From an uncultured cyanobacterium (lineage in GTDB: Bacteria; Cyanobacteriota; Cyanobacteriia; Cyanobacteriales; FACHB-T130), in assembly GCA_936920195.1 (NCBI GenBank), contig CAKZHE010000240.1:1-36720 (forward strand): a DNA stretch of 36,720 nucleotides, in the 5' to 3' direction. Position 1 is the stretch's first letter. Every line of letters begins with the position of its first letter. Both the position numbers and the translations under genes were made by a program. Shown in pieces: positions 25,538 to 28,492 of this stretch. The notes beneath the pieces were generated by a model. It saw only the letters and a program-made list of their open reading frames with translations, did not search any database and was not told where the DNA came from.

Positions 25538-25545
25538 ATTTAGGT

Positions 25546-25617
25546 AGGGTGCGTTAGCGGCAGCGTAACGCACCGTTAACTGGTAGGCGGTGCGTTACGC
25601 TATCGCTAACGCACCCT
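25546..25617. repeat. Large palindromic repeat, loop orientation B
   Basis: Both 29-base arms are identical to those at 10361-10389 and 10404-10432, in the same orientation. The 14-base loop GTTAACTGGTAGGC (25575-25588) is the exact reverse complement of the loop there. Confidence 0.9.
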
Positions 25618-25649
25618 ACAGGAACCAGAAAATTTCTTTGAGAAAAAGC

Positions 25650-25698: not shown

Positions 25699-25772
25699 GG
25701 GACTGTAGTTCAATTGGTTAGAGCACCGCCCTGTCACGGCGGAAGTTGCGGGTTCGAGCCCCGTCAGTCCCG
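25699..25772 (+). tRNA. tRNA-Asp(GTC)
   Basis: A 74-base cloverleaf. The acceptor stem GGGACTG (25699-25705) pairs with CAGTCCC (25765-25771), with discriminator G at 25772 as expected for tRNA-Asp. The anticodon stem CCGCC/GGCGG encloses CTGTCAC with anticodon GTC at 25733-25735. The T-arm is GCGGGTTCGAGCCCCGT. CCA is not encoded, as is usual in cyanobacteria. Confidence 0.97.
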
Positions 25773-25956: not shown

Positions 25957-27372
25957 TTGACTAATATTTTTGCCGCGATCGCGTCTGACAGCACTGAATC
26001 AGAAGTAGAACAACGGGTGATAGTACCGTTGTTAAGGCTTTTGGACTATAGTGATGGAGATTGGCGATCGCAGGTTTCCATTGGCAAACTTAAGGCTGAT
26101 TTCCAGGTACGTCCCCAGGAATCAGATCTCCTCTCGCCACCATTTTTGATAATTGAGGTCAAATCTGCCAAAAGAAAGATTAGTTCTAGCCTTTGGCAAA
26201 TTAAAAGATATCTCCGCAAATCCAGTGCAGTTTTTGGTTTACTGACCAATGGCTATCAATTCCAATTAGTCTACAATTACCGAAACCAAGTTTCCACCAT
26301 TGGGGAATATTCTCAACCGGAGTTAATTGCTAAGTTCCCCTCATTTTATAAATTCTTATGCAAAGCCACTAGCCTAAAACTTGACCGCGCTCTATACAAA
26401 AGCCAGCAACAAACTCGTCTGGGATTCTTGAATTTAGTCCAAAAAGAATTTGCCAGTACCAGTTTGTTACCAGTAGTTGCCGAAGCAACCATATCTTTTC
26501 CCCCTCAAAATCATCAAAATAGCAAACCCATGATCATTACAGTTTTCAACAATAAAGGCGGTGTTGGCAAAACCACGACCACAATTAATCTGGCAGCGGC
26601 ATTGACCAAATTAGGCAAGCGAGTGTTGCTGATTGATATTGATGGTCAAGCAAATCTGACGACAGGACTAGGAATAGATCCATTAACTGATGTTGAAGAA
26701 CTTGGGAAAAAAGATATTACACATTTATTAAAAGACCCAAGAACTAAACTGGAGGAAACCATTATTAAGAAATCTTGGGAAGATATCGAATTGAGTTTAG
26801 TTCCTTCTCATATTCGACTAAGTAACATGGAAACTACTCTTAACAGCATTATGAATGTTGACAGAATATTAGAATTAAAACTCAAAAACCACGGCTATGA
26901 CTTTGTACTTATCGATCCGCCTCCTTCTTTTGGTAAAGTTAATATTATATCCTTAATGGCATCTTCGGCAATGATTATTCCTACTCAATTATCAGCGTAT
27001 CCAATCCGCGCTTTAGAATATGCCTTGGATAGAATGGCTGACGTTCAACAATTCAAAGATTTTCGGATTTTAGGAATTGCGGTAAGTATGTACGATCAAA
27101 AATCATCTAGCTTCAACCTATCAATGTACGAAAAAATATTAGCTCTAATAGAAAAAAAAGGATTAGCAGGGAAAGTAGATGTATTTCCTCAAAATACTTG
27201 GGTTCCTAGGCTAAATATTATTTCTAAGGCTCAAGATAAAGGGTATCCAATTCATGAAGTTGAGTTTGATGATACCCTAACATCTCCAGATAAGGAAGCT
27301 GCTGCCAGAACAATAGAATGCTACAAAAAGCTAGCAAATCATTTAATTAAAGTCACCCAAGGAGATGTCTAA
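25957..27372 (+). CDS. Fusion of an HsdR-N-type PD-(D/E)XK nuclease domain with a ParA-family ATPase
   Basis: A 471-residue two-domain protein. Residues 10-140 read as an HSDR_N_2-type endonuclease domain: Glu17 (SEVEQRVIVPLL), Asp48 (KADFQV), Glu67 and Lys69 (FLIIEVKSA), Gln81 (WQIKRYL) and LLTNGYQFQLVYNY, the order seen at the N terminus of type I restriction subunits. Residues 192-465 are a ParA/MinD-type ATPase with deviant Walker A KGGVGKTTTT (Lys200, Lys205), Walker A' LLIDIDGQANLT (Asp229) and Walker B VLIDPPP (Asp320). All catalytic residues of both parts appear intact. The start is a TTG with no clear Shine-Dalgarno; no better in-frame start exists after the upstream stop at 25909. 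It is followed 4 bases later by a ParB-like partner. Its role is unknown; positioning of a nuclease by ParA dynamics, in defence or plasmid exclusion, is inference. Confidence 0.85.
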   Translation: MTNIFAAIASDSTESEVEQRVIVPLLRLLDYSDGDWRSQVSIGKLKADFQVRPQESDLLSPPFLIIEVKSAKRKISSSLWQIKRYLRKSSAVFGLLTNGYQFQLVYNYRNQVSTIGEYSQPELIAKFPSFYKFLCKATSLKLDRALYKSQQQTRLGFLNLVQKEFASTSLLPVVAEATISFPPQNHQNSKPMIITVFNNKGGVGKTTTTINLAAALTKLGKRVLLIDIDGQANLTTGLGIDPLTDVEELGKKDITHLLKDPRTKLEETIIKKSWEDIELSLVPSHIRLSNMETTLNSIMNVDRILELKLKNHGYDFVLIDPPPSFGKVNIISLMASSAMIIPTQLSAYPIRALEYALDRMADVQQFKDFRILGIAVSMYDQKSSSFNLSMYEKILALIEKKGLAGKVDVFPQNTWVPRLNIISKAQDKGYPIHEVEFDDTLTSPDKEAAARTIECYKKLANHLIKVTQGDV

Positions 27373-27376
27373 AATC

Positions 27377-28321
27377 ATGGATCAATTAGAACGTAGCGAA
27401 CGCATTAAATCTATATTGCGTCCTGAGCAAACAAAGTACGGCAAAATACATACATACCAAATTGCGATACCAGAATCAGAAAAACCGACTCTTTCCAAAG
27501 AAAGAAATGACTTATTAGAAGTAAGTCTGACAGAAAACCAAAGCAATTTATTTTCTATAATTGTTCGTCCTACAACGTCCTATGGGGAGGATCAAATATA
27601 TGAAGTTGTTTATGGTGCTGATTGGTGTCTTGTCGCAAAGCAGCTTGAAATAGAAATGCTCTGGGCATGGTCTTTTGATCTTACTGATGAGCAAGCGGCG
27701 GCTACCAAGGCAGAAATGGAAAGGTTAGCAGGCTCTAATAGTGAAACAGTAACGCTTGATGAAAATTTAGTAAACCTGATTGGTAAAAAATTAGAGGCTA
27801 TCCAACAGGAAAACTACCAACGCCACCAAGAAGAATTTGAAAAGCTGCAAAATAGTTTTCAAGAAAAGTTCAGTCAATTAGAACAGAAAATTGATCGCTT
27901 GAAAACAACACCCACTGTTGAAGACTTAGCAACCCTGATTGACGAACCATTAAAAACCAGCCGTAAACTTGAAAAAGAAAATGCGCTGAAGCTTTTAAAT
28001 GATACTCAAGCTCTACTCAGCAAACAAGCGACAGCTATCAAGAAGGAAATTCAAAAACGCAATAAAATCAATCTCTTGACAGCCACTGAATCTCAAGTTA
28101 AACAAGCTTTAAAATCAGTTGGCATAGGCGTACCTGCGGCAAAAGCAGCATGGAAGGCTATTGAATATTGGAAAAAACCGGGGAAAAAATTAACATGGGA
28201 GAACCTTGCGCTAGCATCAACCCGCACCTTTAAGGATATTTCTGGTTTTAGTCGTGCAACCTATAACAAGCTCCGAGAAATTGGAGAAATAGAAGACATC
28301 GAAAAACCTCCCTCTTCTTAG
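27377..28321 (+). CDS. ParB-like protein with coiled coil and C-terminal helix-hairpin-helix-like region
   Basis: A 314-residue partner of the nuclease-ParA protein. The N-terminal part resembles a ParB/Srx-fold domain: LLEVSLTENQSNLFSIIVRP, YEVVYGADWCLVAKQL, FDLTDEQAAATKAEMERL. The position that normally reads GERR, the CTP-binding box, is GADWCLVA, so the key arginines are missing. About residues 134-176 form a charged coiled coil. The C terminus (LLTATESQVKQALKSVGIGV, ISGFSRATYNKLREIGEIE) looks like a helical DNA-binding or helix-hairpin-helix pair. No ParB-type central HTH is evident. ATG 27377 is chosen because AAGGAG (27359-27364) is 12 bases upstream; ATG 27365 would overlap the upstream gene but abuts the AAGGAG. 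The gene is surely co-transcribed with the fusion gene. Confidence 0.8.
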   Translation: MDQLERSERIKSILRPEQTKYGKIHTYQIAIPESEKPTLSKERNDLLEVSLTENQSNLFSIIVRPTTSYGEDQIYEVVYGADWCLVAKQLEIEMLWAWSFDLTDEQAAATKAEMERLAGSNSETVTLDENLVNLIGKKLEAIQQENYQRHQEEFEKLQNSFQEKFSQLEQKIDRLKTTPTVEDLATLIDEPLKTSRKLEKENALKLLNDTQALLSKQATAIKKEIQKRNKINLLTATESQVKQALKSVGIGVPAAKAAWKAIEYWKKPGKKLTWENLALASTRTFKDISGFSRATYNKLREIGEIEDIEKPPSS

Positions 28322-28403: not shown

Positions 28404-28492
28404 AGGACTTAGGCAGTTACTCTGCATATAGAGTTGATGGTGCGTTACGCTGCGCTAACACACCCTACTGATAGAGGCATTGCGTAAGTCCT
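28404..28492. mobile_element. 89-bp MITE-like element, copy 3
   Basis: The ends are AGGACTTAGGCA (28404-28415) and TGCGTAAGTCCT (28481-28492), with one mismatch. The interior is very close to copy 2, with the same GCATATAGAGTT and GGTGCGTTACGCTGCGC blocks. It lies between the ParB-like gene and gltX, so the two-gene module is bounded by repeats on both sides. Confidence 0.87.

Follow-up and report, generated by a model that had tools for sequence, protein, structure and literature searches.

A two-gene module, in which a ParA-type ATPase carries an N-terminal nuclease-fold domain of the HsdR_N family and is followed by a gene for a ParB-fold partner, was found at positions 25957-28321 of a 36,720-nucleotide stretch of DNA from an uncultured cyanobacterium (hereafter the window). 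At the sequence level the module is defined by its domain order, by the pairing and co-divergence of its two genes, by conserved nuclease residues, by a ParA fold and by a ParB fold that lacks the NTP-binding arginine; the partner tail is of Rho_N or HhH type in some relatives, and copies occur on both chromosomes and plasmids. We interpret it, with moderate confidence, as a ParA-type DNA partition or positioning module whose ParA bears an N-terminal PD-(D/E)XK (HsdR_N) nuclease domain as an accessory. The original prediction, made from the window alone, had described a real but incompletely characterized module, as the two genes belong to a recurrent cyanobacterial family found on chromosomes and plasmids.

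The window locus and its probable insertion site

The nuclease-ParA fusion is encoded on the forward strand at 25957-27372 (TTG start, 471 aa). The partner follows on the same strand at 27377..28321 (314 aa from a conserved ATG) and comprises a ParB-fold N-domain, a coiled coil and a C-terminal helical domain. Its frame is also open from an ATG at 27365, a mechanical start that gives an 8-base overlap with the first gene; the ATG at 27377 is the start common to relatives in the alignment (MD..RR) and lies 4 bases past the fusion stop codon, in agreement with the 4-base spacing first proposed. Both ORFs as originally called (25957-27372 and 27365-28321) are real, and the module does sit between tRNA-Asp (25699-25772) and gltX, with an invertase gene and gltX as its flanking genes.

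The site was empty in all seven relatives checked, where tRNA-Asp and gltX are separated by 86-161 bp, vs 2,776 bp in the window with the module in between. The HHL1-like gene of the window's genome, a gene found near several other copies (see below), has no module beside it. Since the tRNA-Asp/gltX gap is filled in the window but in none of the seven relatives and the HHL1-like gene is module-free, the best reading of the window copy is that it was inserted, in this lineage, at a site new to the module. No att-like repeat was found at the tRNA-Asp/gltX insertion, and tRNA-type integration was rejected because the tRNA 3' end has no second copy on the far side of the module. The repeats noted on both sides of the module are present, but as a feature of the module they did not hold up: genome-wide there are 341 copies of their core 12-mer, against 0 for the reversed control. 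They therefore do not mark the module, and the idea that they form its ends was rejected. The repeat, a palindromic GGTGCGTTACGC, lies at window positions 25544-25619 and 28432-28470, and some of its genome copies are tandem (contig C58, 57-base spacing).

The window's genome, a draft of 326 contigs, contains another module, an HsdR_N-ParA fusion and its ParB-like partner (G000:C280; L210:7681-9707), which belongs to the plasmid-type clade and lies by ABC transporter genes. Elsewhere in the same genome (L232:4043-5056), a ParB_N-like domain with 33% identity to the partner ends a protein that has no adjacent ParA, in a region that looks prophage-like.

Domains of the fusion and its partner

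The HsdR_N (HSDR_N_2) PD-(D/E)XK nuclease-fold domain occupies about residues 1-118 of the fusion (25957..26310, forward strand), with conserved E14, E18, D48, E67, K69, Y85 and G94. HSDR_N_2 (PF13588) matched residues 14-106 at 31.9 bits (Pfam cut-off 25), and the N-terminal part alone matched PHROG 4225 'endonuclease', bearing out the assignment to an HsdR-N-like PD-(D/E)XK domain. Some plasmid copies score under the HSDR_N Pfam cut-off, yet the same residues align. Among the catalytic residues originally named, D48, E67 and K69 were right and are invariant; E17 was wrong, residue 17 being a valine and the conserved acids being E14 (invariant in the fusion alignment) and E18 (nearly invariant). 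E14, D48, E67 and K69 do not vary among 27 fusions from clades 1 and 2, and across 14 fusions of four deep clades the only N-domain invariants beyond the start Met are these four with Y85 and G94. Because four of the six invariants are the residues E14, D48, E67 and K69, a nuclease active site is probably maintained in the fusions. Close pairs gave dN/dS values of 0.00-0.36 for this domain, which are rough estimates from small samples. A model built from two sequences showed the expected helix-strand-strand-helix-strand topology at a pLDDT of only about 50-72. A PDB sequence search with the N-domain returned nothing significant (BpuSI endonuclease appeared at E 1.2), and a viral scan with the N-domain alignment gave no match. 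The linker that follows (26311..26529, forward strand; about residues 119-191) has the lowest conservation of the protein, with pLDDT below 50 at residues 136-187 and dN/dS from 0.15 to above 1 in close pairs.

The remainder of the fusion (26530..27372, forward strand; residues 192-471) is a ParA ATPase domain with the Walker A' motif KGGVGKTTTT (K200, K205), D229 and D320. AAA_31/ParA matched residues 193-365 at 148 bits (Pfam cut-off 27), and the model of the domain (pLDDT about 90) aligned with Soj/ParA structures over about 233-251 residues (Z 31-35, rmsd 1.5-2.1), confirming the complete ParA ATPase, with its Walker KGGVGKTT and K200/K205, that had been recognized from the letters. The Soj-type DNA-binding motif (PRNVRLSEAPS) is partly kept, with the first PR often present in clade 1 and the second arginine replaced. 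No HTH family of the kind found at the N-terminus of type Ia ParA was matched in the fusion; HSDR_N stands there instead. Foldseek aligned the full length with a 'ParA' (456 aa) of Siphoviridae sp. ctHip2 at an rmsd of 22.9, which may point to a phage fusion.

The window partner itself gave no noteworthy match in Pfam, NCBIfam or PADLOC. Its N-terminal domain (27440..27730, forward strand) can be assigned to the ParB fold through relatives: ParB_N scored above the Pfam cut-off in several clade-2 partners, and the profile of the window clade matched the ParB_N-scoring clade with 97% probability (E 8.5e-11). Box II reads GADW instead of GxxR in the window, and the arginine at the fourth position of GxxR was found in none of 27 aligned partners. 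The LG-R/K-GL motif for ParA binding is absent from the window partner and was unseen in the aligned partners, and no HTH family was matched in partners. In tested ParB-like proteins the GxxR arginine is needed for NTP binding (PMC12704722). The prediction of a ParB-like N-domain therefore stands for the fold and not for the name ParB: because GxxR and LG-R/K-GL are missing and no HTH was found, the partner is, by these comparisons, a ParB by fold only.

Beyond this domain, a structure model supports the predicted coiled coil (27752..28060, forward strand; about residues 130-232) and compact C-terminal domain (28061..28300, forward strand). In this single-sequence model the coiled coil is formed by long helices at 133-179 and 185-232, and the C-terminal helical domain (pLDDT mostly 77-91) is a candidate ComEA-like helix-hairpin-helix, with a weak likeness to ComEA 8dss_B (Z 3.9, rmsd 2.7, 64 residues, 27% identity). 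This domain gave no Pfam match and no significant PDB sequence match in the window clade; the PDB search with the partner profile matched mostly coiled coils, and Foldseek with the partner model found no significant match. Partner tails vary among relatives, being Rho_N/SAP in many (Rho_N above cut-off) and HhH-like in some, as in L213 where HHH_3 reached 25.8 bits (cut-off 27). The C-terminal DNA-binding region first suggested is thus represented by DNA-binding-like tails in relatives; the tail of the window protein, with its weak likeness to ComEA, may have such a function too.

Distribution and versions without the nuclease

Conserved pairing, proposed as a property of homologues, was borne out in all 21 loci inspected in detail (the window and 20 chosen by homology), where fusion and partner lie side by side at short spacing and the neighbours mostly differ. 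The two proteins co-diverge (mirror-tree r 0.88, Mantel p 2e-4, n=15 loci), which shows co-inheritance of the two sequences and is no proof of contact, as common ancestry adds to the correlation. Searched with the fusion profile, 386 cyanobacterial genomes yielded about 46 (about 12%) in which a single ORF carries both domains, 35 of them matched by a single alignment and 11 by two segments of the same ORF; a partner search of the 386 genomes found relatives in 36. In a search of 60 relatives, fusions occurred at 52-62% identity, with a second clade at about 31-36%, and a single-protein search of genome contigs matched only a ParA-only clostridial relative. Several module copies are on chromosome-size contigs (e.g. 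G227, G130, G280, G134 and G051). Canonical chromosomal ParAB has no nuclease domain, and the original statement that chromosomal ParAB genes normally lack one is correct for these canonical systems, but chromosomal genes for a nuclease-ParA recur here, in about one eighth of the cyanobacterial genomes that were surveyed.

The ParA part also led to a fusion of 447 aa on an IMG/VR contig (L181), where the partner overlaps it. When this fusion was used as a query against 72,556 plasmid records, only six were covered at ≥80%, all of them cyanobacterial (two Nostoc, Leptolyngbya pLBA from two strains, and two Pseudanabaena). Plasmid copies include those of ABRG53g, pLBA, pPg_01 and two Nostoc plasmids. 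On the 12.6-kb ABRG53g, the fusion is the sole annotated ParA-type ATPase, and it lies beside a short partner and CyRepA1, a replication gene. The Nostoc plasmids also carry other partition genes (ParM, ParA or ParAB), and partition need therefore not be the module's job there. One of them, CP091917 (L193:3095-35886), has at least four partition-type gene sets, namely the fusion with its partner, ParM and two ParA-ParB pairs.

Clade-2 copies, and also those of clade 1 in G002 and G121, lie at a common locus with a divergent lone ParA, several of them with an HHL1-like gene, ileS or glycosyltransferases. In this conserved cyanobacterial locus (L208:7781-11844, L209:7599-11945, L076:8016-11582) the lone ParA, of about 313 aa, is divergent from the fusion-partner pair; it lies near the HHL1-like gene and glycosyltransferases in several genomes and forms its own deep clade in the ParA tree. 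Other arrangements were seen in single genomes. In G006 (L078:10171-15199) the fusion is followed by two ParB-fold partners, one per clade, of which the second ends in a Rho_N-like tail; a Uma2-family nuclease gene comes next. Two modules lie close by in G043 (L075:4579-10652), where one fusion is broken into a pair of overlapping frames of 276 and 219 aa, and in the other fusion a helicase-like start replaces the N-domain; these modules look decayed, rearranged or misassembled.

The nuclease was rightly predicted as part of the module, but it is not constant, as nuclease-less versions still have ParA and partner. The ParA of G046, 68% identical to the window ParA domain, has a partner and no N-domain, and G029, G054, G038, G067 and G280 likewise have a ParB_N-type partner behind a lone ParA. 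When 60 ParA domains were placed in a tree, the partner-bearing lone forms were nested inside fused clades, and the starred branches force at least six label changes; the program's long-branch warning applies to the deep splits. The simplest reading of this pattern would be repeated loss of the nuclease. Because several lineages retain ParA and partner without it, the ParA-partner pair is, judged from these comparisons, the lasting core of the module and the nuclease an accessory.

Possible roles in partition and cutting, and alternatives

Several known systems resemble the module in part. Like ParABS (Soj/Spo0J and plasmid type Ia ParA/ParB), it has a deviant Walker A and a Soj-like fold in the ParA domain, a neighbouring gene with a ParB-fold N-domain, and copies on plasmids and chromosomes; unlike ParABS, an HsdR_N nuclease domain replaces the HTH of type Ia ParA, the partner lacks GxxR, LG-R/K-GL and HTH and ends in an HhH-like or Rho_N/SAP tail, and no parS was found nearby. 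It shares with HsdR of type I restriction enzymes an N-terminal HSDR_N-type PD-(D/E)XK domain above the Pfam cut-off, whereas the ParA domain takes the place of the helicase motor and neither HsdM nor HsdS is nearby. As in McdA/McdB carboxysome positioning, a cyanobacterial ParA-type ATPase is combined with a small partner, and McdA (6nop) was among the structural matches to ParA (Z 31.2, 23% identity); however, the solved chains of McdA extend the match no further than the ParA part, and the present partner has a ParB fold. Orphan ParB-CTPase-fold proteins likewise join a ParB fold to other domains, but the present partner differs from them in adjoining a parA that itself bears a nuclease domain; the survey of such proteins reports a consistently coencoded parA homologue for ParB-DUF3850 fusions only, and HsdR is absent from its main text (PMC12704722). 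No published fusion of ParA to HsdR, PDDEXK or an endonuclease was found in literature mostly outside subscription journals, nor, within the same scope, a cassette already described with this domain order, an identity that the original prediction had allowed for.

A link to partition, also among the functions first proposed, is supported as the best reading by the ParA fold, the ParB-fold partner and the plasmid copies. In such a partition or positioning module, the partner would bind DNA through its C-terminal domain, oligomerise via its coiled coil and stimulate or recruit the ParA part, whose ATP cycle on the nucleoid would move or space the bound DNA; the role would be inheritance on plasmids and placement of some locus on chromosomes. 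The fused nuclease, where present, may act on partner-presented DNA, and its nicking or cutting of linked, damaged or competing molecules would then depend on location. Against partition, searches near the loci for repeats, palindromes and shared 8-mers found no parS-like site common to them, the partner has neither the ParA-binding motif nor the NTP-binding arginine, and the Soj motif is partly kept. The patchy distribution, at about 12% of 386 genomes, also means that the module is not generally needed for chromosome segregation. A variant that puts cutting first is possible though doubtful: in a ParA-guided nuclease, the ATPase cycle would place HsdR_N on the nucleoid, a switchless ParB-fold adaptor with varying tails would load particular DNA, and cutting would follow replicon location or segregation, with rival plasmids, linked sisters or mis-segregated DNA as targets.

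Defence against plasmids or phages had been offered as a function, with defence islands as a place to look for homologues; neither gained positive support. Module neighbours are mostly housekeeping genes, no association with defence islands was seen, PADLOC (library of systems described up to 2023) found no recurring defence family among 93 neighbour proteins, and the module proteins themselves gave weak partial matches only. We therefore consider unlikely a role in defence or replicon incompatibility, in which the nuclease would be the effector on phage or competing plasmid DNA and ParA with its partner would sense own or foreign DNA by location or loading. The strictly kept catalytic residues would fit such a role, as would the patchy distribution, the window copy inserted in a site empty in 7/7 relatives, the copies on plasmids and on one IMG/VR contig, and the typical occurrence of HsdR_N in restriction enzymes; the persistence of nuclease-less versions and the several chromosomal copies in a syntenic housekeeping locus by the HHL1-like gene and divergent ParA do not.

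The same invariant residues bear on whether the N-domain cuts at all. P1/SopA-type ParA has an HTH domain at its N-terminus, and the PD-(D/E)XK domain, sitting in that position, might mainly be DNA-binding or regulatory (operator or nucleoid binding), replacing the type Ia HTH with little or no cutting. The partly kept Soj DNA-binding motif agrees with this, since another DNA contact may then be needed, but D48, E67 and K69 are invariant over deep divergence and would be unneeded for pure DNA binding, and lone ParA versions persist without any N-domain, leaving this explanation rather improbable. That the fusion is a matter of chance or an annotation artefact limited to this genome, as its TTG start and draft, 326-contig assembly might suggest, has next to no likelihood and is refuted by the genome and plasmid survey, in which dozens of independent genomes, with chromosome-size contigs and complete plasmid records among them, have the same domain and gene order.

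Partition systems are usually regarded as pure DNA movers. A nuclease site within ParA, next to a partner without the nucleotide-binding arginine, would couple DNA positioning to cutting and offer a clean test of both, for which the nuclease-less relatives and the two types of DNA-binding-like tail are natural experiments. The module looks like a DNA-partition machine to which a cutting tool was added and from which it was sometimes lost again, and it may be relevant to DNA management in polyploid cyanobacteria and their plasmids.
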